Shown here: positions 34,359-52,420 of the stretch, in pieces
How the letters are laid out: every line of letters begins with the position of its first letter
Numbering within the stretch: position 1 is the first letter of the stretch
Assembly: GCF_000963865.1 (NCBI RefSeq)
Contig: NZ_CP011071.1
Span: 186,001-250,000, forward strand
DNA length: 64,000 nucleotides
Direction of reading: 5' to 3'
Source of the DNA: Flagellimonas lutaonensis
GTDB lineage: Bacteria; Bacteroidota; Bacteroidia; Flavobacteriales; Flavobacteriaceae
Made by a program: the position numbers and the translations under genes
The notes under the pieces: generated by a model
The model's input: the letters and a program-made list of their open reading frames with translations, nothing else
Databases searched by the model: none
Told to the model about the DNA's origin: nothing

Positions 34359-35903
34359 ATGGCGAACAAGCAGATAGATATGCGAAAAATAAAACTGATT
34401 TATAAGCTCTACACCTCTGGTGTAAGCAAGCGACGGATAAGCCAGCAATTGGGCATATCCCGCGTTACCATTAGAAAGTACATCGAATTCTTCAAGCGGT
34501 ACCGTTTCACGGGGTACGAAGTGGAGAAGATGACCCTGGAGGAACTCCACAATCTTTTTAAGGACGGGCAAAGGCCGAAGAGCCAACGCCTGCTGACCCT
34601 AAGGCAGTACTTTCCCCACTTTGACAAGGAACTCCGCAAGACGGGCGTTACGCGACGATTGCTGTGGGAGGAATATTATGCGAAGCACCCCGATGGGTTC
34701 AGGCTCTCACAGTTCAAGTATTGGTACGCCGAATGGCGCAAGGAGACCTCGCCCGTGATGCACATGGAGCATAAGGCCGGCGACAAGCTCTTTATCGACT
34801 TCACGGGAAAGAAACTCCATATCGTCGACAGGGACACCGGCGAACTTCAGGAACTGGAAGTGTTCGTGTGCATACTGGGCAGCAGCCAGTATACCTATGT
34901 GGAGGCCTGCGCAAGCCAAAAACTGGAAGATTTTATACGTTGTACCGAGAACGCCCTATGGTTCTATGGCGGCGTGCCAAAGGCCTTGGTGCCCGATAAC
35001 CTCAAATCGGCCGTGACAAAGAGCAGTCGTTACGAACCTAGTTTGAACAAGGTATTCGCGGACTTTGCCGAACATTACGAAACAGCCGTACTGCCCACAC
35101 GTACCTACAGGCCAAGGGACAAGGCCATAGTGGAGAACGCCGTGAAGATAATCTACACTAGGGTGTTCGCCCCTTTACGGAACCGGACCTTCCATAACAT
35201 CACAGATATCAACAAAGCGATATGGGAGCTGTTAGAGAAGCACAATGGAATGTCATTTAGGGGGAGGGAATACTCCCGTTGTTCATTGTTCCTTGAGATA
35301 GAGAGGCAAGAACTGATGCCCTTGCCCGAAAAACGCTATGAGATAAAAAGGTATGCCCGAGGTACCGTGCACAAGAACAGCCATATCTATTTTGGGAAGG
35401 ACAAGCACTATTACAGTGTTCCCTATCGCCATATCGGCAAACAGGTCAAGCTGGTCTATACCGACAGCATCGTCGAGATTTACCATAAACACGAAAGGTT
35501 CGCGGTACATAAAAGGAACAAAAAGAAATATGGCTATACCACCCTGGCCGACCATATGCCATCGCACCACCGCTTTGTGAGCGAATGGAGCAGTGAGAGG
35601 TTCATTGGTTGGGCAGGCAATATCGGCGAACACTGCAAAGGGTACATCATCGCCATATTGGAAAAGAAACAGCACCCGGAACAATCCTATAAATCCTGTC
35701 TTGGCATATTGCACCTTGCCAAAAAGTATGGAAGGGAACGTCTTGAGAACGCCTGCAAACGTGCCTCGGAATATGGAGCGTACAATTACAATATGGTCGA
35801 GCGCATCTTAAAGAAGGGATGGGACCAAATTGATGAAGGTATCGACGGGGATCTGGAAATGCCCGAGCACAAGAACATAAGGGGCGGAAAATACTATGAA
35901 TAA
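34359..35903 (+). CDS. istA: IS21 transposase IstA
   Basis: A 514-residue transposase. The N-terminal HTH (KLYTSGVSKRRISQQLGISR, VTIRKYIEFFKRY) binds the terminal repeats. The DDE core is complete: first Asp in DKLFIDFTGKK, second in KALVPDNLKSAV, Glu in DKAIVENAVK. A C-terminal segment (HYYSVPYRHIGKQVKLVYTD) is typical of IstA. The frame is intact, so the element may still be able to move. It lies 24 nt upstream of istB. Confidence 0.95.
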   Translation: MANKQIDMRKIKLIYKLYTSGVSKRRISQQLGISRVTIRKYIEFFKRYRFTGYEVEKMTLEELHNLFKDGQRPKSQRLLTLRQYFPHFDKELRKTGVTRRLLWEEYYAKHPDGFRLSQFKYWYAEWRKETSPVMHMEHKAGDKLFIDFTGKKLHIVDRDTGELQELEVFVCILGSSQYTYVEACASQKLEDFIRCTENALWFYGGVPKALVPDNLKSAVTKSSRYEPSLNKVFADFAEHYETAVLPTRTYRPRDKAIVENAVKIIYTRVFAPLRNRTFHNITDINKAIWELLEKHNGMSFRGREYSRCSLFLEIERQELMPLPEKRYEIKRYARGTVHKNSHIYFGKDKHYYSVPYRHIGKQVKLVYTDSIVEIYHKHERFAVHKRNKKKYGYTTLADHMPSHHRFVSEWSSERFIGWAGNIGEHCKGYIIAILEKKQHPEQSYKSCLGILHLAKKYGRERLENACKRASEYGAYNYNMVERILKKGWDQIDEGIDGDLEMPEHKNIRGGKYYE

Positions 35904-35927
35904 AAACAACACTTAAAAACAGAACAT

Positions 35928-36665
35928 ATGAACGAAAAAACAATGGAACTGATGAAACAAATGAGGTTCTTTGGAATGCACAGGGCCTTCGCCACAACAA
36001 TGGAAACCGGAGGTGCCGATACCACCTACACCAATGACGAGCTCATCGCCTATCTCATCCAGAGCGAATGGGACGACCGCCGCAACCGCAGGATAGAGCG
36101 ATTGACCAAGTCCGCAAGGTTCAGGTACACGGCCGTTATGGAGGCCTTGGACTACCGTCCATCGCGCCAACTGGACAAAAATCTTGTACAGCGGCTCGGC
36201 TCCTGCGGCTTTATCCGAAAAAGGGAGAACATACTTGTCACGGGCAGTACGGGCGTGGGCAAAAGTTATCTGGCCTCCGCCATTGGCCACCAGGCCTGCT
36301 CGATGGGGTATAGAACAATGTACTTCAACACCGCCAAACTATTCACCCTGCTAAAGACCTCCAAGGCCGACGGTTCCTACCTGAAACAGATAAACCGATT
36401 GGAAAGACAGGACTTGCTCATATTGGATGATTTTGGGCTGAAGCCCCTGGACAACATAAACCGCCACTCCCTGATGGAGATCATCGAGGACAGGCACGGC
36501 AAAAGATCCACCATAATAGCATCACAGCTACCTGTCGAAGTATGGCACGACATTATAGGTGAAAAAACACTGGCCGATGCCATCCTGGACCGTTTGGTGC
36601 ACACGGCACACAGAATAGATATAAAAGGAGAATCAATGAGAAGAAAATTGAAAAATAAAAACTAA
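35928..36665 (+). CDS. istB: IS21 helper ATPase IstB
   Basis: A 245-residue AAA+ ATPase of the IstB/DnaC family. It has Walker A GSTGVGKS (near residue 106), Walker B DLLILDDFG, and the family N-terminus MKQMRFFGMHRAFATTMET. It assembles on DNA and directs IstA to targets. Both genes intact and correctly spaced indicate a functional insertion sequence. Confidence 0.95.
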   Translation: MNEKTMELMKQMRFFGMHRAFATTMETGGADTTYTNDELIAYLIQSEWDDRRNRRIERLTKSARFRYTAVMEALDYRPSRQLDKNLVQRLGSCGFIRKRENILVTGSTGVGKSYLASAIGHQACSMGYRTMYFNTAKLFTLLKTSKADGSYLKQINRLERQDLLILDDFGLKPLDNINRHSLMEIIEDRHGKRSTIIASQLPVEVWHDIIGEKTLADAILDRLVHTAHRIDIKGESMRRKLKNKN

Positions 36666-36757
36666 GTTTAACCCACGGATAGATCAAATCTGAGCAGTTC
36701 GTTTACACTGGTCACTTTCATCCGGCGAAGGTGGGTCACTTTACCCGGCTTATCCAC

Positions 36758-37753
36758 CTTAATGTACTGATTCATCTTTTGATTGGAATATATCGGAAGC
36801 AAAAGATTTGAACCATTGTTTGCATCGTACTTTTTTAGAATCTCCAAAGCTCTGTTCAGCAAAGGTATCTTGACAGGCTCCAAACTTTTCTTCCTATAGA
36901 AGGAGAGCCATTTTTTTCCATCAGCCCCAAAGACAATGTTGTCCTTGGTCAATCTCTTCATATCAATATAGGATAGACCTGTATAGCAACCAAAGACAAA
37001 AACGTCTCTGGTTCTTTGGTGTATGTCCCTTTTCAATACAGTTTCTTCCAATAGCCGAAGCTCTTTTATTGACAAAAAAGGCCTGTCAAACTTATGGTAT
37101 TTTAGATCATATTTATTAAAGGGATTCTTTTCAAGCCATTCTAATTTTACAGCCAAGTTCATTAATTTTTTCAGCCGTTCTATATGCTTCATTATTCCAT
37201 TGTTATTCAATATTTGGTTACTAAGATTATTCCTTTTGTTTCTCAGGTACTGCTCAAAGTCAACTAGGAATCCATAATTAAGATGTCTCAAGTATATATC
37301 CGATGATTTCATCTTGACAAGTAGGAACTTCATTAAGTACTTCTTGGTGGTTCGGTAATTTTTTAATGTCCCGGGTTTCAAAACCCCTGTCATTCTTTCC
37401 CCATGATAGGCAAACAAGTCCAAAAGGGTCGCGTCATGGTAGTCCAGCCCGAGATACCTCGCTTTTACTGTTTGGGCCGTCACAAACTTTCCCTCCTTTC
37501 TCAATTCTTTATAAGCGGTCGTGATATCTGCATATATATTATCCAATTCGTCATTTATGGCCCTGGCTCTATAAGTTCGGCCAATTGCCCTGCTCATTTT
37601 GTTGTCCCATTCATCTATTGGATGGAATTTGCCCAGACTGAATTCTGTTCGTTTTCCATCGACAGTGATTCGCACATAAATTGGGGCTTGATCATCTTTT
37701 CTTTTGGCCTTAACCTGTCGAAAAAGAACTTTGAATGTTCTTGAAGTCTTCAT
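36758..37753 (-). pseudogene. Tyrosine integrase remnant truncated by IS21
   Basis: From ATG 37753 the first ~330 residues are clearly homologous to the complete integrase at 50951-52195: arm-binding domain (RITVDGKRTEFSLGKFHPID), SAM-like core (LKPGTLKNYRTTKKYLMKFL) and start of the catalytic domain (VFGCYTGLSYIDMKRL). The frame then enters the IS21 end after NQYIK and stops. The catalytic H-x-x-R and Tyr segments are missing, so it is inactive. Its start lies 223 nt from an attachment-site copy, almost the same distance as in the intact element. Confidence 0.88.
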
Positions 37754-37975: not shown

Positions 37976-37988
37976 GTCGGGATGACTG
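37976..37988. repeat. Distal attachment site of the mobilizable element
   Basis: GTCGGGATGACTG matches exactly the 13 bases at 52421-52433, which form the 3' end of tRNA-Pro. The match and its position at the far end of the mob gene block identify it as the second att site. Confidence 0.8.
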
Positions 37989-38227
37989 AACTAAATTTAT
38001 ACAGTTAAGTATTCTATTTTCAAATAGTTAGGCGTTGAAATCTTTAATAAAATCCCTTTATGGACACCGATAACCAAGAAGTAACTTAAGAACGTAATCT
38101 TATTGTGTCTTTCTGACGCTAAACTAATGAGAAATTGTGTAATTTATTTCACAATTCAACATTAAAAACCATTATTATATTTAAATCGCAAGATTATATT
38201 AGAAAACCTTTGATTTAAAATATTCTG
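37989..38227. other. AT-rich non-coding end of the mobilizable element
   Basis: About 240 nt between the att copy and the lipoprotein gene, very AT-rich, with no ORF or clear hairpin. Confidence 0.4.
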
Positions 38228-38626
38228 TCATTCCCTCTCAGCCAAAAATCGCAAATCATTTAAAATTGTACGCGTGGGCAAGGATACACAACTATTAGGA
38301 GCACAATCAATACTAGTAGGATTCTCTCCCATAAATAAATTTACTGCAAAATAATCAATACTAGACTGGGTAGTTTCCAATTCAAAACGAAATGAGCCAT
38401 CATTTCCTGACTCTATTTCTTCTTCAATTATAACCTCATCTAACTGACCTACTCCAGAAACTCTTTTCCTTCCTTGAAAGTTAAGGGTTGCTCCAACAAC
38501 TGGGGATAAATCATCCTCATAAAGAAGTACGCCTTCATAAATTGTTAATTTGCTATCATTATCGTCCGAGTCGCATCCCAAAAAGGTAAAGATGGAAATA
38601 CTAAAAATTAATAAATGTTTCATCAT
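38228..38626 (-). CDS. Small lipoprotein coupled to the T9SS lipase
   Basis: A 132-residue lipoprotein (MMKHLLIFSISIFTFLGC, Cys18, then acidic DSDDNDS). The mature part (IYEGVLLYEDDLSPVVGATL) looks like a carboxypeptidase-regulatory, transthyretin-like beta sandwich, and two cysteines near the end (CAPNSC) may pair. Its ATG overlaps the TGA of the upstream lipase gene by four bases, so the two are translationally coupled. It could anchor, chaperone or neutralise the secreted lipase; none of these is shown. Confidence 0.75.
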   Translation of the reverse strand: MMKHLLIFSISIFTFLGCDSDDNDSKLTIYEGVLLYEDDLSPVVGATLNFQGRKRVSGVGQLDEVIIEEEIESGNDGSFRFELETTQSSIDYFAVNLFMGENPTSIDCAPNSCVSLPTRTILNDLRFLAERE

Positions 38627-41361
38627 GGTCTTTCTATTATAATTTTGTATTTCAAGATTTCAAAATCGGTTTTTATTTCCAACACATATATGCCCTCTTT
38701 TAATGCAGAAGTGTAATAAGTTTCCTCGTACTCACCCAAAGGTCTATAACTATTGGTTATGGTAACGGTCTCACCACCAAAATTAGTAATAGGAATTAAT
38801 GAAATATTTACATTACCTTCCGCTGGCATCGAATATTTCACGTTCACCTGTCCTTGAACAGGGTTTGGCCAAATAGTAATTCCTTTTTCAAATTCACTTT
38901 GCACTATTTCGTCCTCATCGACGGTTTCTTCATCTTTACCAATGTCATCAGTCTTTCTAATACCTCCACCAGGGTCTCCACCTTCACTACAACCATAAAT
39001 AGGATGATATTCATCATATACGGTAAAAGTTCGGCTCATGGCATTGGAAGAACCTGAGAATCCTGAACTTGATGAATACGACCTTCGCAGATTCACGGTA
39101 TAAGTTCCGACGGGTAATCCAGGGCCCATTCTTAATGTTTTTCCCTGAAGGCTAAAATTTCTTGGGCCCGTTACCGTCCAAGTATGAGTATACAAATTAG
39201 CGATTTCACTTCCGTCGTCAACAATAAACAATGTACGGCTTCCAACTTCACAGGTATACCAATAATCGGTATTAATTCGAGGTCTAGGTGGAGAAGATGA
39301 ACCAATTGTTTGATTGCAAAAGCTCGTTAAACCAAATCCAAATTCATCTTGGAAGAGGTCTGCCCAAGAATCATCTATGTCTGAATTATTTATATGCTGA
39401 GAATTGTCATTCTCTCCATATATTTTATCAAAAGGAGTCCAGTTATTTGCTTCAAGTTGTGCCACACTTCTGTTTAAATGAGACTGTGTAGTTCGTGGTG
39501 CTGTGGATGCCGTACTGCTGAACAATGGAACAAAGCTAAATAAAGAATTCCCAAAATCATTGACTGTATGCCCACCGAACCAACTTGCAATGTTAAAAAC
39601 ATCGAGTAAAAAATTCACATCTGGACCTATGTTATCTGTTTGATTGCTCTCTGTGCCCCCAGCCACCATATCATAATTAAACCCATTGAAATTATACGAG
39701 TCTTCCCTTACAGTTGTTGGAACACCTAAAGTTAGTATAATCAAAGAGGAAACCTTGGTATTCGTGTTCAAACCATTAGTGCGAACAACAATGAATCCAC
39801 TAAGAGCATTTACAAAATCAACATCCAGTAATTTGTTTCCTGGGCTATAAGTTAGTTCAGGTTCATTAACTGACCCATCTACAGCAGCATTGACAATACT
39901 CAGATTTTTTATACCACCTTGAGAAGGAAATCCAAGGTTCTGAAATTCATTCTGAAGGCTAGTGAAATCGGAATGAGGATTAGGGCCTAATCTCCTAAGA
40001 AGTAGTTGCTTAGCAGCCTTACTGTTTACACTGGTCATAGCGTCATCAACTTCTGATATTGAAATATTTAACAGTGAAAACAAATTAATATCATCAATAT
40101 CTTCAATCAGTTTTTGATACCCTACAGGTATGTTGGCACCAAGATGAGGAGCATCAAAGCTTATGAAGTGACTTACATTATGAACCCTACTTGAGTTTTC
40201 CATAGAAGTTAGAGCATATCGAGCAATTAATCCTCCCATGCTTTCACCAATAACTATAATATCATTGTTGCCTATTTTCTGGTCGTTGACCGTTTCAATC
40301 AATTGCTCAAGAACGTCCGCATTGGTTCTAATGTCTCCGCCACCGCTGTAGAAATTCAGGTAAATCATATCGTATCCATTATTTCGAAGTGTTCCCTCGA
40401 TGTTAGCCACTTGAAAACGGTCTTGGATATCATAGGCGTTTGAATCTCCTAGTGGGTCAAATCCCTCCACATAGATTACTGGCCTATCGAAAACCCTGTC
40501 ACATCCCCTAAATACCAACGCCTGTCCTCGGAAGAAGCTGCTGCCCCTGGAAGTAGTATTTGAATTCTGTTTTGAAGAATTAGGTAATGCTAAATCATAT
40601 GAAAGGTATGGTTCTTCTTTTTCCAACGTAACAATGTAGAGTTTACTATAATTGATAAATTCCCTTTCTTTGTTAAGTTCAAATTTTACAGCTATTGATT
40701 TTTCCCCATCAGAATCATATTCAACATTGATAATTTCTCCTGCGCTAACTTCTCGAAAACCTTGTCCATCTGAAAAGTCTATGGATATCGATTTAACGTT
40801 GGCATTACTTTCAACGTAGAACAAATCCCTCAAAACTTCAAATCTAATGGTACCCGAATAAACCTTATTTTTCAGAATTCCACCATTAAAAATTTTATAT
40901 TTCTTATATTTTTTATCTAATAGAAAACCGTTTTTGGTAGCTTCTATGTTTTCATCTATATCATAGTCTTCTAGGTATTCTCCTTCAACACAAATAATCC
41001 CAATTGGAACAGTTCCCTCTTGTTCTTTAGAGGATTCCATGATTTGAAGAACATCTGTCTCAGGGAAGTCTGAGTTCTTTTTCAAAAATGACTTAGACAA
41101 TCCTTGATAGATTACTTCCCAACTACTCGGCTCAACAAAAGAAAAGTAACTATCCAGTTTTTCTTCCTCAAACTTCAGAAACTCCGCAACACGGTTTTTA
41201 AAGAAAAAGCCTTTGTTCAAGAATTTCTCTGTTTTTATCGATTTCTTTTCTACACTATCCAATCGGTCATAGGCATCTTTAAGTTTTTTAAGACCATCTT
41301 CCTGGGAATAAGAAGAAGCGAATAAAATAAGAGTTAAAAATGTAAGTAAATAATTTTTCAT
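38623..41361 (-). CDS. T9SS-exported alpha/beta-hydrolase (lipase-like)
   Basis: A 912-residue secreted protein with signal peptide (MKNYLLTFLTLILFASSYS). A PGAP1-like hydrolase domain lies at about residues 290-480: VIYVEGFDPLGDSNAYD, nucleophile elbow GESMGG with Ser374, and FISFDAPHLGANIPVG. A beta-rich region follows. The final 80 residues are a T9SS type-A sorting domain (KGITIWPNPVQGQVNVKYSM ... LKYKIIIERP), so the protein is exported through the type IX system and attached to or released from the surface. It probably hydrolyses lipid or acyl esters outside the cell. It is IME cargo. Confidence 0.85.
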   Translation of the reverse strand: MKNYLLTFLTLILFASSYSQEDGLKKLKDAYDRLDSVEKKSIKTEKFLNKGFFFKNRVAEFLKFEEEKLDSYFSFVEPSSWEVIYQGLSKSFLKKNSDFPETDVLQIMESSKEQEGTVPIGIICVEGEYLEDYDIDENIEATKNGFLLDKKYKKYKIFNGGILKNKVYSGTIRFEVLRDLFYVESNANVKSISIDFSDGQGFREVSAGEIINVEYDSDGEKSIAVKFELNKEREFINYSKLYIVTLEKEEPYLSYDLALPNSSKQNSNTTSRGSSFFRGQALVFRGCDRVFDRPVIYVEGFDPLGDSNAYDIQDRFQVANIEGTLRNNGYDMIYLNFYSGGGDIRTNADVLEQLIETVNDQKIGNNDIIVIGESMGGLIARYALTSMENSSRVHNVSHFISFDAPHLGANIPVGYQKLIEDIDDINLFSLLNISISEVDDAMTSVNSKAAKQLLLRRLGPNPHSDFTSLQNEFQNLGFPSQGGIKNLSIVNAAVDGSVNEPELTYSPGNKLLDVDFVNALSGFIVVRTNGLNTNTKVSSLIILTLGVPTTVREDSYNFNGFNYDMVAGGTESNQTDNIGPDVNFLLDVFNIASWFGGHTVNDFGNSLFSFVPLFSSTASTAPRTTQSHLNRSVAQLEANNWTPFDKIYGENDNSQHINNSDIDDSWADLFQDEFGFGLTSFCNQTIGSSSPPRPRINTDYWYTCEVGSRTLFIVDDGSEIANLYTHTWTVTGPRNFSLQGKTLRMGPGLPVGTYTVNLRRSYSSSSGFSGSSNAMSRTFTVYDEYHPIYGCSEGGDPGGGIRKTDDIGKDEETVDEDEIVQSEFEKGITIWPNPVQGQVNVKYSMPAEGNVNISLIPITNFGGETVTITNSYRPLGEYEETYYTSALKEGIYVLEIKTDFEILKYKIIIERP

Positions 41362-41615
41362 AGTCAGTGTATTTATAGGTATTTATAATATATTTCTGAC
41401 AGAAATTTACAACACATAAAGATACCAGACGTAAATTTTTTGTAAAATTCGTTCAATTGAAAAACTATCAATCCTTTACATTTTAAGGATTACCCATATT
41501 TCAAATGAGTTTGCGATTTCGAAATAATTTGCAAATAGTTTTTAGCAACAATTTCTGATTTGAATATGATAGTTTATCTATCCTTGAGAGAAACCTGATT
41601 AAGTGAAAAACTATA

Positions 41616-42989
41616 TTATCCTTCTTTTTCAGACATAGAATGATTATCTACAAAATATTCAATATAGTTGGGCAACTGTGTACCTAAATAATAAGGTAAA
41701 TTCATCAATAAAAAAGGTGTTCCGGCTATAGTAGTTGATTTCTCCACTTTGTACCCCCCACCATAGATTCGAATGGCATATGGATGGTCAGTTCGGTCCA
41801 TGAACTGATGCAAGGATTTTAAGGTTCCTGTTGCTCCTGATTTTATCTCAATGGGAATAACCTTATCTTGGTAGGGATACACCAAATCTACTTCCGAGGA
41901 AGATTGTTTTTTTTCTCTAATCCAAAAATGGGGTTTTGTACTACTAATGGTATTCAATGATATAATTTCTTGCGTTATGAGATGGGGAATGATAGCTCCT
42001 TTAAAAGCATTACTCAAATCTTCCATCCCCAAAAGCTGTGCTTGAATTCCCAAAGTGTAGTTTACGAGACCGGTATCTAAAAACTGTAAACGAGGTGATT
42101 TATTAATATTTGGCTTAATAGGTGGTTCAATGTCTGTTGTAGGATAAATGAGTTGTATGATTTTTGCTGCATCCAGATTACGCATGGCTTCTCCTACCTC
42201 CCTTGACCTATAATTCGAATTTCCAAAATTCTGGAATTTGATTCTTTGGTCTATATAGAGATGGGCAGTTTCCATAATATGTCTGATTACCCGTCTTTCG
42301 GTAGCATTGGAGGCATATTTTTCAACATCTTCCTTATAGGTGGCCCAAATGCTTTCATAAACATTGGGAAGATTAGCCAAGTTGCCATCTCCAATGTTCC
42401 TTTTGACCACTTCGGGCATTCCTCCAATTATGGCATACCGATGAAAAAGTCCTAGCAATGTCTTATGTGCTACAGGATTTAAAGGTACGCTTCGCAAATA
42501 ATTTAAAGCCGTATTATGGTTTATTGCTTGTAGGTATTCAGAAAAATTTAAAGGGAATAAATATAGAAACTCGACTCTTCCCACTGGAAAGCTCTCTACC
42601 TCTTTTATTGCAAATTCCAGTAGAGATCCTGCTGAAATCACATGAAGCTCTGGAACTTCTTCAAAAAAATACCGAAGTAACTGGATGGCCTTGGGTAGTT
42701 CTTGAATTTCATCTATAAACAGTAACGTGTTCTGCTGCTGGTCAGGAGTAATATTATTTGATAATAATAATGACTCTACAATGGTATTAACATCGTCATA
42801 GGCTTCGAAAAACTCTTTGTCAGAAGTTTTTTCCAGATTCAATGGAATAAAAAAATCATAGCTTTTGGCAAATTCCGTTACTAGGGTCGTCTTGCCCACC
42901 TGTCTTGCTCCACGTAATATTAGCGGTTTCCTATTATTACTGGCCTTCCAAGCTTCCAGATTTTTTAGAACATACCTTTTAAAATTCAT
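41616..42989 (-). CDS. AAA ATPase with DUF4143 (PF13173/PF13635 type)
   Basis: A 457-residue protein. The N-terminal AAA module has Walker A GARQVGKTT at 27-35 and Walker B LLFIDEIQE with Asp93-Glu94. The C-terminal DUF4143 domain ends in a restriction-endonuclease-like segment (SSSEVDLVYPYQDKVIPIEI with the E/D...I-x-I-E-x-K pattern). Such proteins are widespread in Bacteroidota and often sit in variable loci; their role is unknown, with nuclease or toxin-like activity suggested by the fold. Three phased direct repeats lie directly upstream. Confidence 0.9.
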   Translation of the reverse strand: MNFKRYVLKNLEAWKASNNRKPLILRGARQVGKTTLVTEFAKSYDFFIPLNLEKTSDKEFFEAYDDVNTIVESLLLSNNITPDQQQNTLLFIDEIQELPKAIQLLRYFFEEVPELHVISAGSLLEFAIKEVESFPVGRVEFLYLFPLNFSEYLQAINHNTALNYLRSVPLNPVAHKTLLGLFHRYAIIGGMPEVVKRNIGDGNLANLPNVYESIWATYKEDVEKYASNATERRVIRHIMETAHLYIDQRIKFQNFGNSNYRSREVGEAMRNLDAAKIIQLIYPTTDIEPPIKPNINKSPRLQFLDTGLVNYTLGIQAQLLGMEDLSNAFKGAIIPHLITQEIISLNTISSTKPHFWIREKKQSSSEVDLVYPYQDKVIPIEIKSGATGTLKSLHQFMDRTDHPYAIRIYGGGYKVEKSTTIAGTPFLLMNLPYYLGTQLPNYIEYFVDNHSMSEKEG

Positions 42990-43002
42990 ATTACAATAAT
43001 AT

Positions 43003-43086
43003 TTGTAACAAAGTAAGGGTTATTTTTTTAATTTATTGTAATAAAGTAAGGGTAAAAGTTAGAAAATTTTGTAACAAAGTAAGGGT
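43003..43086. repeat. Three 18-nt direct repeats at exactly 33-bp spacing
   Basis: TTGTAACAAAGTAAGGGT occurs at 43003-43020, 43036-43053 (one change) and 43069-43086. The period is 33 bp, about three helical turns. The array starts 14 nt upstream of the DUF4143 ATPase start codon. On the minus strand each copy contains TTACTTTGTTACAA. It is probably a set of operators or iteron-like protein-binding sites for this gene. Confidence 0.8.
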
Positions 43087-43162
43087 AGAAAGGTGTCCAG
43101 CACCCACATTTGAACCCACGCCGCCCCAAATCTTACCATAACCTTCATGCGCGTGGTTCCTG

Positions 43163-43229
43163 TGGAATTTCTTCCGCGTTCGGGAAGATAAGCGGGAAGC
43201 CCGCCAGAGGCGGGTGAAAAGAAATTCCA
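43163..43229. repeat. Nested inverted repeat downstream of the mob genes
   Basis: An outer perfect 11-bp inverted repeat (TGGAATTTCTT at 43163-43173 with AAGAAATTCCA at 43219-43229) encloses a hairpin CCCGCC-AGA-GGCGGG at 43200-43214. It lies just past the DUF6730-like stop. It could be a terminator, a structured RNA or part of an origin of transfer. Confidence 0.55.
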
Positions 43230-43240
43230 TAGGGCGCATC

Positions 43241-43708
43241 CTACTTTTGATTTGTGATGCTGTCATGTTTTTGGACCCACTCTTGGTAATCCTTGAAAAT
43301 GACAGGATGGTCCTCAAAATATTGTGTCGCTTTAAATAATCCCTCATTCTTTCCCTCCAGATAGGCAGTTTCCTTTTGCTTTTCATATTGAATGTAATGA
43401 TAACCGAAGTAACCGAATACCGTTGCATTCAGAATCATTACTGTGTAAATTAAAGCTACCTCCCATTTCGGTATTAACCTCGATTTGTCAATATTCTTTA
43501 GTGCTTTATCCAAAGCCTGATGCTGCTTTTCCGAAATGCTTTTCAAATTGGATTGGTGTACGTTCAACAGGCGTTCCATTTCCGAGGTGTCCGGCTCGAA
43601 ACCAAATTCGTCGATATTTTTGAGCAGTACTTTGAGTTCAGTAACCCAACTTCCAAAAGACCTGATTTCCTCGGTCAGCAGTTCCGCTATTTCATCCAGT
43701 TTTGCCAT
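43241..43708 (-). CDS. DUF6730-like mobilization-associated membrane protein
   Basis: A 155-residue protein. The N-terminus is helical, likely coiled coil (LDEIAELLTEEIRSFGSWVT, EMERLLNVHQSNLKSISEKQ). One membrane span lies near residues 83-105 (VALIYTVMILNATVFGYFGY), followed by a charged cytoplasmic tail. Proteins of this layout accompany MobB-type relaxases in Bacteroidota elements. It begins 4 nt after the relaxase stop, so it belongs to the mob operon and may dock the relaxosome at the membrane. Confidence 0.7.
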   Translation of the reverse strand: MAKLDEIAELLTEEIRSFGSWVTELKVLLKNIDEFGFEPDTSEMERLLNVHQSNLKSISEKQHQALDKALKNIDKSRLIPKWEVALIYTVMILNATVFGYFGYHYIQYEKQKETAYLEGKNEGLFKATQYFEDHPVIFKDYQEWVQKHDSITNQK

Positions 43709-43712
43709 AACA

Positions 43713-44594
43713 TTACAATCCTATTTCGATTCCTATCCCTTTATCGATTGTTCTTTTGATGGTTTTTGAAATTGCTTTTGTAGCAATTTTAGCAACGAGA
43801 TTGGGAGATAGATTTACTGTGTTGCCCATCAGTTTCATTGCATTTTCGGTTTTTGCTTTCTCCACTACATTTCTGTTGAATCCAATCTGTTCGGCTATCT
43901 TGTTCATGGACATTGAAGGGTGCACCTCACTGCCTTTTAAGTTCTGTCCTGCAAACTCAAACCGAAAGCCCTGCAATTGGTTCTGCTTATTAATGGATGG
44001 GATGACCTTTACTGGGTAGGCTTCCATCGCTTTAATGTATTGGTCAAAGTCCTTTGGCCTCATTTCGCTGATGACCTTTTCGTGAATTCTTTTGAGAATC
44101 ATCCGCATATCCTTCGCCATGTCCAGTTTTTGTTGTTGGACTTCCCGTACTGTAGTCAGGCCCATTTCCTTTGCCACCCGTTCCGCAGCTTGCTGGCTCC
44201 GCTTTCCAATAAAGTTGTCTTTATAAGCCTGACCTTGAAAATTGATTCGGTTTACGTACAAATGGATATGGACGTGCTTTCTGTTTCTGTGGACAAATGC
44301 AATGGCCTGGTTCTCCCGTAATTTCATCTGTTTCAGAAAGCGTTCCGTGATTTCTTGGAGTTCTTTGTTTTTCATTTCCCTGCCATCTTTGATGGTTGGA
44401 CTCAATACAAAACTCAGGGTGTTCTTTTTACATTGATGGTTCTGCTGTTGGATGGTCCTGAACTCTTGTGTAATCTCCTTTGGGGTATCTCCGGCGAGAT
44501 ATTGGCTATGGATAATCTCGGGTTTCTTTTCTTCCCGAAGTCCGTAGGCCATGGATGCCGATGTGTGCGATATGGATTTTCCCATTCCGATCAT
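43713..44594 (-). CDS. mobB: Relaxase / mobilization nuclease
   Basis: A 293-residue relaxase. The N-terminus MGKSISHTSASMAYGL is typical of Bacteroidota MobB proteins. The metal-binding triad H107-x-H109-x-H111 followed by Asn115 (HVHIHLYVNRIN) is the catalytic site that coordinates the divalent cation during nicking. The candidate nucleophilic Tyr is Tyr17. It nicks oriT and pilots the strand. It overlaps mobC by four bases (ATGA). The gene is intact, so the element could be mobilized by a helper. Confidence 0.92.
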   Translation of the reverse strand: MIGMGKSISHTSASMAYGLREEKKPEIIHSQYLAGDTPKEITQEFRTIQQQNHQCKKNTLSFVLSPTIKDGREMKNKELQEITERFLKQMKLRENQAIAFVHRNRKHVHIHLYVNRINFQGQAYKDNFIGKRSQQAAERVAKEMGLTTVREVQQQKLDMAKDMRMILKRIHEKVISEMRPKDFDQYIKAMEAYPVKVIPSINKQNQLQGFRFEFAGQNLKGSEVHPSMSMNKIAEQIGFNRNVVEKAKTENAMKLMGNTVNLSPNLVAKIATKAISKTIKRTIDKGIGIEIGL

Positions 44595-44887
44595 GCCTTA
44601 AATCTTAAAAGGTGTTCCCTGATTTCTTTTGCCAGTTGGGTGACTTCATCTGCCAATTTTGGATTTCGCTTTCGAAACATGTTCCCGATGCGCTTGAAAT
44701 TGTTCTGATACTGAACCAATAATTTATAAGCCTCAATTTGGTCTTCAGATAAACGCTCAATAATCCTATCATCAAATGCGGCACGGCGACAATACTCACT
44801 GATGGAGAGACCTGACTTTTTGGCCTTCACTTTCAGCAGTTTCTTCTCATAGACTGAGCACCTGAATTGGACGAATTCCCTTTTCAT
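44591..44887 (-). CDS. mobC: MobC relaxosome accessory protein
   Basis: A 98-residue protein from ATG 44887 (MKREFVQFRCSVYEKKLLKV); a longer in-frame start adds a Cys-rich, unlikely leader. The ribbon-helix-helix segment (VQFRCSVYEKKLLKVKAKKS, LSISEYCRRAAFD) and the later helix (LLVQYQNNFKRIGNMFRKRN) are typical of MobC, which binds oriT and helps the relaxase. It overlaps the relaxase start by four bases. Confidence 0.9.
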   Translation of the reverse strand: MKREFVQFRCSVYEKKLLKVKAKKSGLSISEYCRRAAFDDRIIERLSEDQIEAYKLLVQYQNNFKRIGNMFRKRNPKLADEVTQLAKEIREHLLRFKA

Positions 44888-45082
44888 AGGTTTTTTCCTC
44901 TTTTGCGACCTTCGGGAGCAAAAGCAAGATTTGTCATGACAATGACACATCTTGAATTCTCACTCAGACGCATATACCAAGCCGCAACCATATCACCTCT
45001 CATCTCCCTATCCATAAACCCAAAAACATCTGAAAAACATTCTTTACCAAATACAAAGTCATAAGGATAAAGTAATTGGCAT

Positions 45083-45373
45083 TCATTTTTTATCCTTTGA
45101 AATTCTTCGTTCGAATTCAGCTTCTAAATATTCATCGGAGAGGTTGGGCTTACCCATTAACCAAGCGTCTATAATATCCTTATCGAAAAATTTCTGGCGA
45201 ATGTACTTGTTACCACCCATGGGTATCAATCGTAATTGTGTCAGTTTGTAAATCTTACTTTTCGATAGTCCCGTATAACGGGCAAGGTCATTGACATTCA
45301 TAATCCGCTTTTGGTGGGATAGCAACTGCTTAATGTCTTTCAAAAGCTCCACCACATTTTCATCTGCTTCCAT
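45083..45373 (-). CDS. Excisionase-like helix-turn-helix protein
   Basis: A 96-residue protein of the HTH_17/MerR-like excisionase group: MNVNDLARYTGLSKSKIYKL then RLIPMGGNKYIRQKFFDKDI, DAWLMGK. Proteins of this type act as recombination directionality factors or regulate mob and excision genes in Bacteroidota elements. It precedes mobC in the same direction. Confidence 0.88.
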   Translation of the reverse strand: MEADENVVELLKDIKQLLSHQKRIMNVNDLARYTGLSKSKIYKLTQLRLIPMGGNKYIRQKFFDKDIIDAWLMGKPNLSDEYLEAEFERRISKDKK

Positions 45374-45494
45374 AATCTCATTTTCTAATAATTACCTTGT
45401 ACAAAGGGCAATTGTGTTACAAATCTTCGAGCCAAAGAAAGCAGATGATATGTGATGGAAAGGGAAAAAAGGGAAGATGTCCCCCAAAGAAAAT

Positions 45495-46166
45495 TCAATA
45501 GTCCCCCAAAAAATCGAAGAAAGAGTCGATTAGGCCTTCGAATTCGTCGCCCGGAGGAAACTCACTATACTTTTTGGAAAGGGTCTTTGCGTAGATAAGG
45601 TTGCCCTTGTGATAGACCTTTTCCGAACGTTCAAAGGTTTTCAAATGCAGTCCATTTTTAAACCGTTTGAACTTTTCGAGGATGTATTTCAATTGAGGCT
45701 GTGTGCAGATAAAATGAAGCTCGGAATCATGTTCTTCAAAATCAAGAACAAAAAAGTAGTGGAAGTCGGCGAAACTGGTCAGGTTTTCATCCAATAGTTC
45801 ATAACGGACAAGGGAATTGTAAATCCTTCTTAGGACTCTTTCGTTAAAGTCCATATTGATGCCGACAAGTTTTAGTTTGGGGGTGCTATGCTTTCGATTC
45901 AACTGTTCTTTATAAGATTCCCTAACGAGTATCCCCATTATGATTAAAACAAACAGTGCGATTGGAAGTAATGCGACCCAAAGAAGCTCATAATCATCAT
46001 ACAGCTCCAAGGCCCAGAAGACAAAAAAGGCACCAAAAACCAAAAACCATACGTACAGGCCATTGTTGCCTCGTTTTAGATAACTGTCCGTATCATTCTC
46101 GATTCTATCCTTCCGCAACTTGATGTTGACCAACCAACTGGCTATGGTGTCGATTAACTTCATCAA
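45495..46166 (-). CDS. Two-span membrane protein of unknown function
   Basis: A 223-residue protein. Two adjacent membrane spans at about residues 37-54 and 60-80 are followed by a soluble domain (VGINMDFNERVLRRIYNSLV, FHYFFVLDFEEHDSELHFIC, PGDEFEGLIDSFFDFLGDY). No family is recognised. The soluble part is rich in aromatic and acidic residues. It sits between the mob genes and the SIR2 operon on the element, separated from the latter by a structured non-coding region. Confidence 0.7.
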   Translation of the reverse strand: MMKLIDTIASWLVNIKLRKDRIENDTDSYLKRGNNGLYVWFLVFGAFFVFWALELYDDYELLWVALLPIALFVLIIMGILVRESYKEQLNRKHSTPKLKLVGINMDFNERVLRRIYNSLVRYELLDENLTSFADFHYFFVLDFEEHDSELHFICTQPQLKYILEKFKRFKNGLHLKTFERSEKVYHKGNLIYAKTLSKKYSEFPPGDEFEGLIDSFFDFLGDY

Positions 46167-46614
46167 TTCAAAGGGTATTTATTTAAAGATAACCAAAAGG
46201 AGGAGGGTTGTAGCCAAAATCTCGATGTAACCTATTATACGCTAGGTGGAAACGCAAAATTTTTGTGGCTGGGGAGAAGAAAGGTCAAGCGGTTTTTCAC
46301 CGCTTGTGCTTTCGCGCCGCTCCGAGGGTGTCGGAAAACCAGAAAGGTTTTCTGACTTCCGCAGGGGCATGGGAAAAAATTGAAATTAGCAAAGTTTAGA
46401 AAATCCAAGGCTCTTAAAAGAAGTCTTACAAAGTTCCAAAATAAATTACTAATATATAATTGTAAAAGGGTTTGTACTTCGGAGGTTCACCAAGAAGTTT
46501 TCTATCTTTTTATTGATTTTCACTAAGGCAATATGAAAATTATTTCCTGTATTCCGGTAATAAAAATTAGTATAGTTAAGATAAAAATGGAATCTAGAAA
46601 ATTATAACGGGAAT
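46167..46614. other. Structured non-coding region of the element
   Basis: About 450 nt without a gene. Two good hairpins stand close together: CAAGCGGT-TTTTC-ACCGCTTG at 46286-46306, and an 11-bp stem GTCGGAAAACC with GGTTTTCTGAC at 46330-46356 (one G-U pair). The GC-rich block 46264-46372 contrasts with AT-rich flanks. It could be the origin of transfer or a small RNA; the remainder to 46614 is AT-rich with no feature seen. Confidence 0.55.
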
Positions 46615-46851
46615 CTATTCTTCGACTTTTCTATAAGAAAATTCCTTTGTTTCTGGGTCAAATGAAGATTCTCCTATTCTAATGCTATTGGACGGATTGA
46701 GCACAGAGCCGTTTGTTGGGTCAAGAGCATTCATAGTATCTCTGTTAGCCACTTGTCCAAAAATCTGTTTTTCATAGGCTGATTCCGGTTTGTCTGGCAA
46801 CGCATCAAACAGCAACCTATCTACCTTCCTATTTAGTTCGAATAAATCCAT
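46615..46851 (-). CDS. Small fourth gene of the SIR2 operon
   Basis: A 78-residue protein from ATG 46851 (MDLFELNRKVDRLLFDALPD); an upstream in-frame TTG adds eight residues. No family is recognised. It has a short amphipathic N-terminal helix and a polar remainder (NRDTMNALDPTNGSVLNPSN, FDPETKEFSYRKVEE). It lies 35 nt after the SIR2 stop in the same direction and is the last gene of the operon, so it might be an inhibitor or accessory; that is speculation. Confidence 0.6.
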   Translation of the reverse strand: MDLFELNRKVDRLLFDALPDKPESAYEKQIFGQVANRDTMNALDPTNGSVLNPSNSIRIGESSFDPETKEFSYRKVEE

Positions 46852-46886
46852 AATTTCCCCCGAAAAGGAGTGCAAATTTACAATTA

Positions 46887-47789
46887 TTAATTCATATTAT
46901 CCAAAGCTATTTTCATGGCCTTTGTACTTATATCCATCAAGAATTTTGGGACTTCATCTTTATCTAGAATAAGAGGGGCTATTCTCAAATCCCTCAACTC
47001 TTCCTTTATCGCGACATCTACATCCCTGATGAATATCCAAACACCTAAATCCCTATCAACTTTATTTTTTATCTTTCTTAACAATGGGGCTATCAATCTA
47101 TCTCCAGAAGTGGCCTCTGACATTCCAATAAACAAAAAATTATTCTTTGATAAATAATGTTTGACCAAAACTGACCATTGACTATCGTCCTCCCCTAACC
47201 TCTGGTCGGCTTGAGATTTACTCAGAATTATTTCCTTGCTAGGTCTATCATCCATAATTGGATGAGGTACATATCCGTGCGGGTGAAATATTTCAACATC
47301 ATGGCCTGCAGAAAAGTAAGGCAGTTCAGAAACGCTGTTTACAATTAGTCCGAAGGAACTCAAATACCATTCCAGTAGAGAATCATAGTTTAGTGTAAAA
47401 ACTGTTTTAACCCTGCCTCTTCTTCCTCCTATTATCAGCCCTGCTATAGAATTAAGAGCCTTATGTTGAAAAATATCATATTTCTGACTTTCCAGATTAA
47501 GTCCATTATATAAGTACTTAGATATCAACTCGATAAGTTTCTTTTCGTCTCCTTTAAGCTCGCGGACGATTTTATCTGCTGCAATTTGAAATTCATCTGC
47601 ACTTGGACGTTCTTTTTCCAATAAAGGCAAACCGATTGCTTCGTCTTTATTTAAGTTGTTCAAAAGTGATTTCCAATCATCCACTTCGAATGATTTAGAA
47701 ATTCCGGCTCCCACAAAAAGACTGAGGGAATCTTGATATAGGCTTTTTGCCAAAAAATTTACCGCATTATCCCTGAACTCAATTTCCAT
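46887..47789 (-). CDS. SIR2-family protein (SIR2_2), probable NAD-consuming defence effector
   Basis: A 300-residue protein with the SIR2-like nucleotide fold: FVGAGIS at 25-31 (NAD-binding GAG), TLNYDSLLEW with Asn134 and Asp136, HPHGYV at 169-174 giving the catalytic-type histidine, and FIGMSEATSGDRLIAPLLRK late. In many bacterial defence systems this domain degrades NAD to stop phage growth. It lacks the long sensor C-terminus of Dsr proteins, so recognition is likely supplied by its neighbours. It begins 3 nt after the 277-residue gene's stop. Confidence 0.88.
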   Translation of the reverse strand: MEIEFRDNAVNFLAKSLYQDSLSLFVGAGISKSFEVDDWKSLLNNLNKDEAIGLPLLEKERPSADEFQIAADKIVRELKGDEKKLIELISKYLYNGLNLESQKYDIFQHKALNSIAGLIIGGRRGRVKTVFTLNYDSLLEWYLSSFGLIVNSVSELPYFSAGHDVEIFHPHGYVPHPIMDDRPSKEIILSKSQADQRLGEDDSQWSVLVKHYLSKNNFLFIGMSEATSGDRLIAPLLRKIKNKVDRDLGVWIFIRDVDVAIKEELRDLRIAPLILDKDEVPKFLMDISTKAMKIALDNMN

Positions 47790-47792
47790 TTA

Positions 47793-48626
47793 TTAGATTT
47801 CAGCGTTTTCTCTATCCAGTGGGGAAATTGAGGTATTATCGAAATAATCTGAGTCATTCAAAAATGAAATAAAGTAAATTAGAGAAATTAGATTCAGGCA
47901 TCCCTTTTGTAAATACAACTTGTAATTGCCATATCTGTCCGCGTTTAGACTCAAATTAATTCTAGACAGACCATCATCCCTTCCGACTACACATTTGAAC
48001 CTGGAAGTGCTTGGAATCCATATATTCTTTTCATCATTATTTTTATTCGATAGTAAATCGAACACCAATTCGCCGATGTCAGTTGACAGAGGCTTGTTTC
48101 CCTTGATAATCACATTAGATATATCACCCCTACTCCGTTTAGAAATTCCAACTCCTGTTGTTTTTACAGTAATATTTTTTGAGACTAACTCATTCCCAAT
48201 AACAGTATTTATCAAATTAAAAATTCTAATTATCAGGTACTTAGGTTGAATTTTAAGCTGGTTCAATACATCCTTTATAAATTGGCTTAAAAGTTCAGAA
48301 AAAGGTGTTAGTAAACAAACAATTCCATCCGCCTTAAAGTGCAATATTAAACTATCGTATGCAAAGTTTTTGACCTTGTTTCCTAGATACGCTTTGGCCT
48401 TACTTTTATCCACATTAAAATGTTCTTGTAACCCCCTATGGTAAGGCCGATCGGTATTATAGACTAGATGAATTACCTTTGCAGACATGATTTCCTCCGA
48501 TTTAATCTGTGTCCAATCCTTAAAACTTTTTGCAAGTTCTTCAATAGCAATGAAACCTTCTGTCCTAAGAATTATCATGTTATAATATCTCTGATCCCCA
48601 GTAATATCAATCTTTGGTTTATACAT
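47793..48626 (-). CDS. Unrecognised second protein of the SIR2 operon
   Basis: A 277-residue soluble protein without a family I recognise. Features are an N-terminal alpha/beta segment (YNMIILRTEGFIAIEELAKS), a middle AKVIHLVYNTDRPYHRGLQE, a helix-rich stretch (FSELLSQFIKDVLNQLKIQP), and a C-terminal region with KRSRGDISNVIIKGNKPLST and FKCVVGRDDGLSRINLSLNA. No signal peptide or membrane span is present. It lies between the HExxH protein (2 nt upstream) and SIR2 (3 nt downstream), so it must be co-expressed and may link sensing to effector. Confidence 0.75.
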   Translation of the reverse strand: MYKPKIDITGDQRYYNMIILRTEGFIAIEELAKSFKDWTQIKSEEIMSAKVIHLVYNTDRPYHRGLQEHFNVDKSKAKAYLGNKVKNFAYDSLILHFKADGIVCLLTPFSELLSQFIKDVLNQLKIQPKYLIIRIFNLINTVIGNELVSKNITVKTTGVGISKRSRGDISNVIIKGNKPLSTDIGELVFDLLSNKNNDEKNIWIPSTSRFKCVVGRDDGLSRINLSLNADRYGNYKLYLQKGCLNLISLIYFISFLNDSDYFDNTSISPLDRENAEI

Positions 48627-48628
48627 GG

Positions 48629-50746: not shown

Positions 50747-50782
50747 TTAAAATGAAAGATTTTATCTAAAGTGAATTAATAT

Positions 50783-50812
50783 TCTTTACAATGTAAGAAT
50801 GTACTGTAAAGA
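50783..50812. promoter_or_regulatory. Inverted repeat upstream of the SIR2 operon
   Basis: TCTTTACA - 14 nt - TGTAAAGA, a perfect 8-bp inverted repeat 37-66 nt upstream of the HExxH gene start. The minus strand also reads TATCTTTA at its outer edge, close to a TAnnTTTG box. It is probably an operator overlapping the operon promoter. Confidence 0.4.
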
Positions 50813-50950
50813 TATTCATAATATCTATCATGACCTCCTCACGTATTTAGGGAAGATTATATGTTGTTTCAAAAAAATCTTTTGAAGCCATTTTGGGACT
50901 ATTTTATTAAAATGATAAGTATTTTAGAACGAGTAGCTTACGAAATCGCT

Positions 50951-52195
50951 CTAGAGTTGCGTCGCTTTTTGGTTTTTTGACTCCATTACATCCATTAAAT
51001 TTTGCATATCCTGTCCAACTTTCTTTTCAACCACCCTGGCATAAATCTGAGTAGTGGATAATTTGGTATGACCCAATAGTTTTGAAACGGTTTCTATTGG
51101 AACACCATTGGATAGGGTTACGGAAGTGGCAAAGGTATGTCTAGCGGTATGGAAAGTCATTCTTTTTCGGATTCCACAAGCATCTGCAATTTCCTTTAAG
51201 GTTCTATTTATCATTTGGTTGCTATACCTAGGTAGTAGCCTATCCCCTTTGACTATTCTCGATTCAGTTTTATATTTTTCAATGATTTCTAAAGCTTTCG
51301 GCAGTAAAGGTATTCTTAAGGGTTCATCGGTTTTGGCCCTTTTGGTGTAAAGCCAATTATTTCCATCGATACCTTTTACCAAATGCTCCACCTTCAAACC
51401 TTGGACGTCTACAAACGAAAGCCCTGTGTAACAGGCGAAAATAAAAAGGTCTTTAATTTGCTCGGTACTTGGCCTTTTAAAGGTTGTTTGTTCCACTAAC
51501 TGCAGTTCCCATTCCGTCAAAAATTGACGATTAGTTTTTTCAAATCGAAGCTTGAAATTAACAAAGGGGTCTTTTTCGAGCCATTCCAGGCGAACACCTA
51601 GCCTTGACATCTTTTTTAAGCGTTCCATGTGTTTCATGGCCCCATTATTAGCACATCCCATTCGAGTGGAAGGCTTATACTTGCGTACATATTGTTCAAA
51701 GTCGGTTATGAAACCGTAATTCAATTTATTTAATGGAATGTCTTCAATCTTAAGCTCATCTTTTAGATATTTCTTTATACATCTTTCCGTGCTATAATAA
51801 TTCTTCATGGTTCCTGGTCGTAGGGAAGTCTTCATCGTGGCATTATGATAGGAAATCAAATCCAATAAGGTCTTACCTTGTTCATCTGTACCGAGATAAC
51901 GTGCCTTGATTTTTGCCGAAGTAATGTCTTCTCCCTCTTGTAAAAGTTGGCGATGTGCTTCGTGAAGGCCAGTAAAAACCTGGTCCAAATACTTATTTAC
52001 GGAGGTTACGTATTTGGAAGACCCCCTACCCCTTTTGCTTCTGTTGTCCCATAAAGAGGCCTTCAATTCCCGATTCAAACTAAACTCCGCTCTTTTTCCA
52101 TCTACAGTTATGCGCGCATAAAGCATTAAGTTTTCAGTTTCCCTCTCGAGTTTTCTTGTAATGAAAATAACGGATAATCTACTGTTTTCTAACAT
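50951..52195 (-). CDS. int: Tyrosine integrase of the mobilizable element
   Basis: A 414-residue integrase from ATG 52195; an upstream in-frame TTG is less likely. It has an arm-binding domain (ARITVDGKRAEFSLNRELKA), a SAM-like core-binding domain (LRPGTMKNYYSTERCIKKYL) and a catalytic domain with FHTARHTFATS (H-x-x-R), LLGHTKLSTTQIYARV (nucleophile Tyr). The usual first Arg position reads YTGLSFVD, with Ser instead of Arg, as in CTnDOT-type Bacteroidota integrases. Its start lies 226 nt from tRNA-Pro, matching use of the tRNA 3' end as attachment site. Confidence 0.94.
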   Translation of the reverse strand: MLENSRLSVIFITRKLERETENLMLYARITVDGKRAEFSLNRELKASLWDNRSKRGRGSSKYVTSVNKYLDQVFTGLHEAHRQLLQEGEDITSAKIKARYLGTDEQGKTLLDLISYHNATMKTSLRPGTMKNYYSTERCIKKYLKDELKIEDIPLNKLNYGFITDFEQYVRKYKPSTRMGCANNGAMKHMERLKKMSRLGVRLEWLEKDPFVNFKLRFEKTNRQFLTEWELQLVEQTTFKRPSTEQIKDLFIFACYTGLSFVDVQGLKVEHLVKGIDGNNWLYTKRAKTDEPLRIPLLPKALEIIEKYKTESRIVKGDRLLPRYSNQMINRTLKEIADACGIRKRMTFHTARHTFATSVTLSNGVPIETVSKLLGHTKLSTTQIYARVVEKKVGQDMQNLMDVMESKNQKATQL

Positions 52196-52366
52196 ATTAT
52201 GTAGCTTTAAATGAATAAACAACTGGTAAAAAACACATTGTCAATTACCCTTAAAAGCTACTTCAATGTACAAAAAATGTGGTGGTGTTCCATTCCCGAA
52301 TCCCTCACCAGCGAGGCATTTTCATATGGTTTCAGATGGTTTCTTTTGAAACCTCTAAAAACATAA

Positions 52367-52396: not shown

Positions 52397-52420
52397 ATGC
52401 AACTAAAAGAAAATAGTTGA

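Follow-up and report, generated by a model that had tools for sequence, protein, structure and literature searches.

A phospholipase effector with a lipoprotein as its immunity protein is already known as a kind: Tle3 is such an effector of the type VI secretion system (T6SS), and its immunity protein Tli3 is an outer-membrane lipoprotein (PMC9860674). In this study, a two-gene pair was analysed in a 64,000-nucleotide stretch of Flagellimonas lutaonensis DNA (contig NZ_CP011071.1, positions 186,001 to 250,000 of the forward strand, hereafter the window), where it lies in what appears to be a mobilizable element. On balance, the comparisons lean toward the pair being a membrane-lipid hydrolase exported by the type IX secretion system (T9SS) together with its own lipoprotein immunity protein, carried as cargo of this element. 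As in Tle3-Tli3, a predicted lipid esterase of the alpha/beta-hydrolase kind is encoded with a putative outer-membrane lipoprotein of beta structure. Unlike in that pair, the hydrolase carries a T9SS sorting domain in place of VgrG and the T6SS, and inhibition by the partner is here only putative. Tli3 is built from three beta-sheets in a stack, with a loop that inserts (PMC9860674), whereas the model of the window lipoprotein is perhaps transthyretin-like. The scan of neighbouring proteins matched no VgrG, PAAR or Hcp family; a T6SS was not sought elsewhere in the window or genome.

The TANFOR/BaCT polymorphic toxins are likewise antibacterial proteins of Bacteroidetes with an adjacent immunity gene, and both their export by T9SS and a role of this system in interbacterial competition have been hypothesised (PMC7073777). 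That text describes varied C-terminal toxin domains and the DNase BaCT and mentions neither 'lipase' nor 'lipoprotein'; the window hydrolase, by comparison, has a constant catalytic domain with the sorting tail in the same protein. The BSAPs of Bacteroidales are also a case of surface antagonism in Bacteroidota and involve surface lipoproteins with an export signal, but they form pores as MACPF proteins, and the lipoprotein in their case is the antimicrobial protein itself (PMC12853789). Orphan immunity genes that are kept without the toxin have been described in gut bacteria, where they face T6SS effectors (PMC12247911); a T9SS-type hydrolase takes that place here.

The pair itself consists of the following features.

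38623 to 41361, minus strand: T9SS-type alpha/beta hydrolase (lipase fold), 912 residues; from the open reading frame list, Pfam, alignment and predicted structure
Hydrolase, N-terminal and catalytic parts (limits approximate): signal peptide about 1-20, N-terminal domain about 21-275, catalytic domain about 276-676
Hydrolase, C-terminal part (limits approximate): Ig-like region about 700-782, linker, type A sorting domain 830-909
38228 to 38626, minus strand: partner lipoprotein, 132 residues (131 with the second ATG); from the open reading frame list and alignment of relatives
38623 to 38626, minus strand: ATGA, stop/start overlap of the hydrolase and lipoprotein genes

An earlier note on this DNA had described a 912-residue hydrolase with Ser374 as nucleophile and a type A sorting domain, overlapping by ATGA with a 132-residue lipoprotein, and this description was borne out. 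Ser374 lies within a GESMGG motif. In an alignment of 46 hydrolases including that of the window, Ser374 and His656 are invariant and Asp564 is nearly so; judging from conservation only, Asp564 is probably the third residue of the triad. The hydrolase matches the Pfam families DUF676 (33.4 bits, cut-off 20.3) and PGAP1 (30.0 bits, cut-off 24.3), and residues 830-909 match Por_Secre_tail (PF18962; 34.4 bits, cut-off 27). The NCBIfam model of the type A tail, TIGR04183, scores 22.6, slightly below its cut-off of 23. Among 46 aligned relatives, PGAP1 was found in 40 and Por_Secre_tail in 34 (E<=1e-3). With a GxSxG nucleophile and a conserved triad, the protein has the predicted marks of a PGAP1/DUF676-type lipase, and with Por_Secre_tail and a putative Sec signal peptide (a hydrophobic N terminus, judged by eye) it has those of a T9SS type A substrate. 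SprA, the one T9SS core component sought in the host genome, was found there (2940 bits). A predicted structure of the 912 residues (46 sequences, mean pLDDT 80.0, pTM 0.57) places a lipase-fold domain at about residues 250-676. Its best structural match is BlEst2 (Z 18.0, rmsd 3.5, 224 residues), followed by lipases and esterases (Z 15.5-17.6), and LipA-type lipases are among the fold matches.

For the lipoprotein, an alternative in-frame ATG at 38621-38623, giving TGATG, agrees better with the N termini of related lipoproteins. Its lipobox FLGC, recognised by eye, is followed by the acidic residues DSDDND. Acidic residues after the lipidated cysteine are reported to act as export signals of surface lipoproteins (PMC5080379), and those of the window protein (C-DSDDND) and of the relatives at loci L073 (C-VFDDEN) and L076 (C-DKDSSD) resemble the signals SDDFE or K-(D/E)2; C-IDFTKD at L074 and C-EQEPRQ at L168 are less like them. 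Near the C terminus, C107 and C112 (131-residue numbering) are invariant in the five lipoproteins found paired with a hydrolase. No Pfam family matched the window protein. An NCBIfam match to BSAP-5i immunity (E 0.1) was rejected, as it spans the signal peptide only. A sequence search of the Protein Data Bank gave three matches, the best at E 0.16 and none of value. The predicted structure is all beta (model from 4 sequences, pLDDT 73.7, pTM 0.63) and aligns with the TTL domain of carboxypeptidase D (5aq0; Z 8.6, rmsd 2.4, 79 residues) and with DUF3823 (4eiu; Z 8.1, rmsd 2.5, 91 residues). Transthyretin-like and prealbumin-like domains stand among many tied rows (Z 7-9), and Foldseek gave no match at E<=1e-3 (best E 2.3e-3); the model suggests a fold that is perhaps transthyretin-like. 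A search for a Bacteroidetes-type promoter pattern gave no match, and sigma-70-type matches were no commoner than by chance.

Relatives were sought in a genome collection. With the single hydrolase, 37 stretches fitted a pattern and none was confirmed; a scan with an alignment then found close relatives, yielding 598 stretches of which 583 were confirmed. The loci analysed are the best 80 of these 583, and the window's branch may have further members beyond them. A hydrolase open reading frame was obtained in 75 of the 80. Left out of the counts were eight repeat loci (L072, L169-L173, L175, L176), further hydrolases of a locus, identical sequences, and hydrolase frames shorter than 440 residues or not closed within the locus. 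Full-length close relatives are 44% (L073), 41% (L074), 45% (L076) and 35% (L075) identical over the best segment, and L168 was added as the fifth from a search of 196 genomes that share a family with the Algoriphagus genome of L074. Within the window's own family, 86 of 299 genomes match the hydrolase at E<=1e-3, some through the sorting tail alone; in a phylum sample of 395 genomes, with two candidates scored per genome, only the window's own genome matched at E<=1e-60. Forty stretches of viral contigs were retrieved for the hydrolase and none was confirmed. Plasmids gave no DNA match and 22 records by protein, none covering 80% of the query and all below 60% identity. The hydrolase tree of 106 sequences (quick method, midpoint rooting, several long branches) holds the window's branch with 6 members (100), a second branch with 26, a third with 3, a largest branch with 60, and 11 remaining rows.

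The earlier note had proposed looking for conserved pairing with variable sequences, and such a pattern was found in the window's branch. A homologous lipoprotein lies directly downstream of the hydrolase in five of the six members (window, L073, L074, L076 and L168; gaps -11 to 152 bp), and these lipoproteins are 16-29% identical, compared with 37-55% for the hydrolases (10 pairs each). The five are linked together via L076 and L073. In phmmer searches (Z=100000), the window lipoprotein found that of L076 at E 9e-6, that of L073 at 1e-3 and that of L168 at 0.29, the L076 lipoprotein matched the window's at E 5e-6, and that of L168 matched that of L074 at E 5e-10; the window and L074 lipoproteins did not find one another. 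Because the true relatives L168 and L074 are barely or not found, single-sequence searches with the window lipoprotein, which gave one weak match outside its own genome (G033, E 4e-4), are weak negatives. At L168, direct repeats of about 580 nucleotides (L168:5772-6355 and 11647-12229, 95-96% identical) flank the pair and an IS66-type transposase.

A second lipoprotein family, DUF6252-like, lies directly or closely upstream of the hydrolase in 23 of the 26 members of the second branch and in all three of the third. It was grouped by a hidden Markov model (HMM) made here from 15 of its lipoproteins, and HMMs of the two families give no cross-hits. When Pfam DUF6252 was run on four upstream lipoproteins, L101 and L102 scored above the cut-off, L107 below it, and L081 gave no match. 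Locus L087, labelled as having no partner, has a DUF6252-like lipoprotein 176 bp downstream, and L143, with two copies upstream and no hydrolase frame, was left out of the counts. At another locus labelled without partner, a lipoprotein with two carboxypeptidase regulatory-like domains (L083:535-1170) stands 20 bp upstream of the hydrolase and is possibly a third partner family.

The distribution of both families bears on whether the lipoprotein is an independent gene that travels with the hydrolase by chance. Small lipoproteins are frequent in Bacteroidota, and orphan lipoproteins exist, as would be expected of independent genes. Against this, order and orientation of the pair are kept in five of the six members of the window's branch, which come from at least two bacterial families, despite the low identity of the lipoproteins, and partner labels change 7 times on the hydrolase tree compared with a mean of 28.2 after shuffling, none of 200 shuffles being as low. 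Chance travelling is rated as very improbable.

The DUF6252-like lipoproteins also form arrays. Of the 26 loci so labelled (23+3), 13 hold at least two copies, partial copies included, the most being six in L134. When copies of one locus are compared, conservation is higher over the first quarter of the lipoprotein than over the remainder in 35 of 45 pairs; this quarter reaches 80% identity or more in 24 of the 45, while identity over the remainder is 26-81%; since dS is low in these leaders too, leader duplication or gene conversion, not only selection on the core, shapes the pattern. Hydrolase 5' stubs (residues 1-49, 1-76 and similar) lie between array copies in five of the 26 loci (L081 with three, L104, L139, L064 and L134). 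Genome G093 (L236) has an array of five lipoproteins with an N-terminal hydrolase remnant of about 75 codons among them, and the 19.5 kb examined there contain no further hydrolase; its only matches in the hydrolase search are to the sorting tail. A search of 95 unselected genomes with array lipoproteins as query found 11 matches, spread over 4 genomes: four stand next to intact hydrolases (G059, G041), five next to the remnant in G093 and two elsewhere (G041:C222 and G076). Hydrolase frames are split in 7 of the 26 array-labelled loci (L138, L088, L124, L109, L131, L134 and L066), which is given little weight, some possibly being assembly errors; none of the six members of the window's branch is split, and in the 60-member branch only L117 has an extra piece, apparently a second partial copy. 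Core DUF6252 genes match in 51 of 100 genomes of the window's family, with none in its own genome, and about 1.5 kb on each side of 30 core loci held no hydrolase. The array lipoproteins are a divergent subgroup, so DUF6252 in its entirety does not constitute an immunity family. In L237:7951-11235, an array-type lipoprotein stands beside an 828-residue secreted-looking protein that is not this hydrolase, and the array-type family may guard against other enzymes too.

Lipoproteins of the window's type were likewise found apart from an intact hydrolase. A profile search matched 11 of 108 genomes at E<=1e-3, five of them above 45 bits (G1008, G1065, G1094, G1084 and G1083). G1065 has an intact lipoprotein behind a hydrolase remnant that consists of the last 45 codons; this remnant is 89% identical to the end of the L168 hydrolase, and the lipoprotein is 87% identical to that of L168 across the last 93 aligned residues, with a dN/dS of 0.43 that fits constraint without proving constraint after hydrolase loss. 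Within 14-16 kb around the lipoproteins of G1094, G1084 and G1083, no trace of a hydrolase was found (tblastn, E<=0.1), and those of G1083 are a tandem pair. G1065, G1094, G1084 and G1083 are among the 196 genomes mentioned above, of which five others match the hydrolase at E<=1e-60 (only top candidates per genome scored). G1008 has a paired lipoprotein and a second copy on another contig (L231). A reading of L231 as a tandem copy was rejected, as it lies 20 bp after a 119-bp sequence common to the start of another contig.

These loci also bear on the possibility that the lipoprotein is a dedicated folding helper, as Lif is, or a secretion or anchoring adaptor, as PorP/SprF are for type B substrates. 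Lif serves Pseudomonas-type lipases, and LipA-type lipases use foldases encoded downstream. As in LipA-Lif operons, a secreted lipase is encoded with an envelope-anchored partner directly downstream. The two genes adjoin in the same operon order and are kept in one branch, and LipA-type lipases are among the fold matches of the hydrolase. Unlike Lif, the window lipoprotein matches no foldase or beta-barrel family and has a predicted all-beta, perhaps transthyretin-like, fold, and partners occur without the lipase where such a helper would be expected only with it. PorP-like proteins anchor type B T9SS substrates, whereas type A substrates of Porphyromonas gingivalis are anchored through A-LPS (PMC9143113). 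Lipoproteins persist intact in places with only a truncated hydrolase or none found, two unrelated-looking lipoprotein families accompany one hydrolase family, and all 60 members of the largest branch have neither, so the enzyme fold by itself needs no partner. A partner for folding, secretion or anchoring should vanish with the enzyme; here the lipoprotein sometimes stays, at times in several copies, and two unrelated-looking families take the part. Such retention is the usual record of immunity genes. A helper or adaptor is rated as improbable. Adjacency and co-inheritance are present, as are orphans and arrays with putative toxin remnants, which are frequent though not universal in toxin-immunity systems. 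The remnant loci of G1065 and G093, the stubs in arrays and the orphan lipoproteins favour self-protection over a chaperone or an anchor. The earlier note had left the choice between toxin with immunity and surface lipase with anchor; the former gained support from conserved pairing and from lipoproteins that outlive the hydrolase, and the latter was weakened by A-LPS anchoring and the orphans.

Nutrient scavenging would explain the pair without antagonism: a surface lipase would work with a surface lipoprotein that catches substrate or product lipids, and the arrays would be varied binding proteins. The acidic stretch behind the cysteine fits surface export, the partnerless branches would resemble ordinary secreted lipases, and dN/dS of lipoprotein pairs, at 0.26-0.58 in the 8 pairs computable, is below 1 throughout. 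Hydrolase 5' stubs within arrays and single lipoproteins beside a hydrolase remnant are, on the other hand, not expected of an uptake system, and the element proteins scanned gave no transporter match. Scavenging is considered unlikely.

Several observations weigh against an immunity function for the lipoprotein or a weapon function for the hydrolase. The same dN/dS values, obtained in a search for positive selection in the lipoproteins, revealed none. L075, in the window's branch, has a hydrolase without a lipoprotein partner, and three of the 26 members of the second branch lack a partner label (L147, L099 with only 145 bp of upstream sequence, and L108). At L108:3173-4396, 2.4 kb upstream of a second hydrolase, a DUF6252-like lipoprotein is followed by a 5' hydrolase fragment of about 200 residues, 30% identical to L087. 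Outside the largest branch with its 60 members, a further 11 rows of the tree are without either label. The earlier note had counted it against its proposal if lipase homologues usually occur without the lipoprotein; this is the case in the wider family, as in the largest branch, but not in the window's branch with five of six paired. The hydrolase does not appear to follow the polymorphic-toxin pattern of a constant N-terminal part and a variable C-terminal toxin, its catalytic region (276-520) being, in 14 of 15 pairs, better conserved than any other part (44-69%). With gene lengths of 2.7 kb and 0.4 kb, deletion is likelier in the hydrolase, and size alone would partly account for survival of the small gene. 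An outer leaflet of lipopolysaccharide (LPS) is a poor phospholipase target, and T9SS is not known to deliver proteins into other cells.

The setting of the pair was described by the following features.

37976 to 37988, no strand assigned: first copy of the 13-bp direct repeat GTCGGGATGACTG, at the far end of the element and probably an att site
41616 to 42989, minus strand: AAA_14/DUF4143 ATPase adjoining the hydrolase-lipoprotein pair
43713 to 44594, minus strand: relaxase, PF03432 at 100.8 bits; MbpB-like at 92.5 bits, below the NCBIfam cut-off of 400
44591 to 44950, minus strand: MbpA-type mobilization protein, 128.6 bits (cut-off 90)
45083 to 45373, minus strand: HTH_17 protein, presumed excisionase-like
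50951 to 52222, minus strand: tyrosine integrase, intact (PF00589, PF13102, PF17293), beside the tRNA
52421 to 52433, no strand assigned: second copy of GTCGGGATGACTG, within the tRNA-Pro 3' end, likewise a probable att site, integrase end
52421 to 52495, minus strand: tRNA-Pro (GGG), probable attachment gene

Between the repeats the order is integrase, HTH_17 protein, MbpA, MbpB-like relaxase, a SIR2-containing cluster, the ATPase and, at the far end, the pair. The 13-mer, at 37976-37988 and 52421-52433, was first picked by eye and then tested, with 0.07 matches expected by chance. A 20-mer taken from the end of the tRNA matches nothing but the tRNA itself even when up to 3 mismatches are allowed, so the repeat is short. 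The anatomy of 37976-52433, about 14.5 kb, supports a mobilizable element that carries the pair, in agreement with the mobile cargo of the earlier note.

The ATPase matches the PADLOC candidate defence family PDC-S01 (646 bits). A three-gene run at 46887-50746 (minus strand) encodes a SIR2_2 protein with weak ThsA/LmuA-type PADLOC matches (about 40 bits), and a 277-residue and a 705-residue protein without Pfam or PADLOC match, the latter with a HELMH (HExxH) motif seen by eye; these three genes of the element may form a defence system so far undescribed. Three copies of a 19-nucleotide repeat, spaced at 33 bp, separate the ATPase from the mobilization genes (43002-43086). Just outside the 13-bp repeat, at 34359-37753, an IS21-type istA/istB abuts a tyrosine integrase (36668-37753) that has no Pfam match for the catalytic domain and is probably left over from a second element that used the same tRNA site. 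Beside tRNA-Pro, 52992-61484 (minus strand) encodes a repetitive, secreted-looking protein of 2830 residues whose C-terminal end resembles, by eye, a gliding-type sorting tail.

As a weapon with its antidote, the pair would act as follows. Sec would move the hydrolase to the periplasm, and T9SS would carry it on to the cell surface or release it into the medium; there it would attack ester bonds of envelope lipids in other bacteria, sister cells included. The co-translated lipoprotein would sit at the outer membrane and bind or block the hydrolase, sparing the producer and any new host of the element. Comparison of loci indicates that some lipoproteins outlive the hydrolase, and old antidotes may be kept when a weapon is exchanged or lost.

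A 2023 review of T9SS effectors (PMC10202324) does not use 'antibacterial', 'competition' or 'lipase' in its main text, by word search. No description of a T9SS lipase with a lipoprotein antidote was found in titles and abstract openings among the matches listed, mostly outside the subscription literature, and the name DUF6252 was found in no paper of the literature searched. Compared with the known phospholipase effectors, the T9SS export route and both immunity families would be new. A wider picture, somewhat short of probable, is that T9SS takes part in bacterial antagonism: its lipase family may have gained unrelated lipoprotein antidotes at least twice, once encoded downstream and once upstream, the DUF6252-like arrays with their stubs may record past weapons, and the element may spread a weapon-antidote pair among flavobacteria. 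With two genes, an intact catalytic serine, and orphans and remnants in relatives, the pair offers a small testable system for T9SS in competition, and if the proposal is true, the arrays of DUF6252-like lipoproteins would gain a role.

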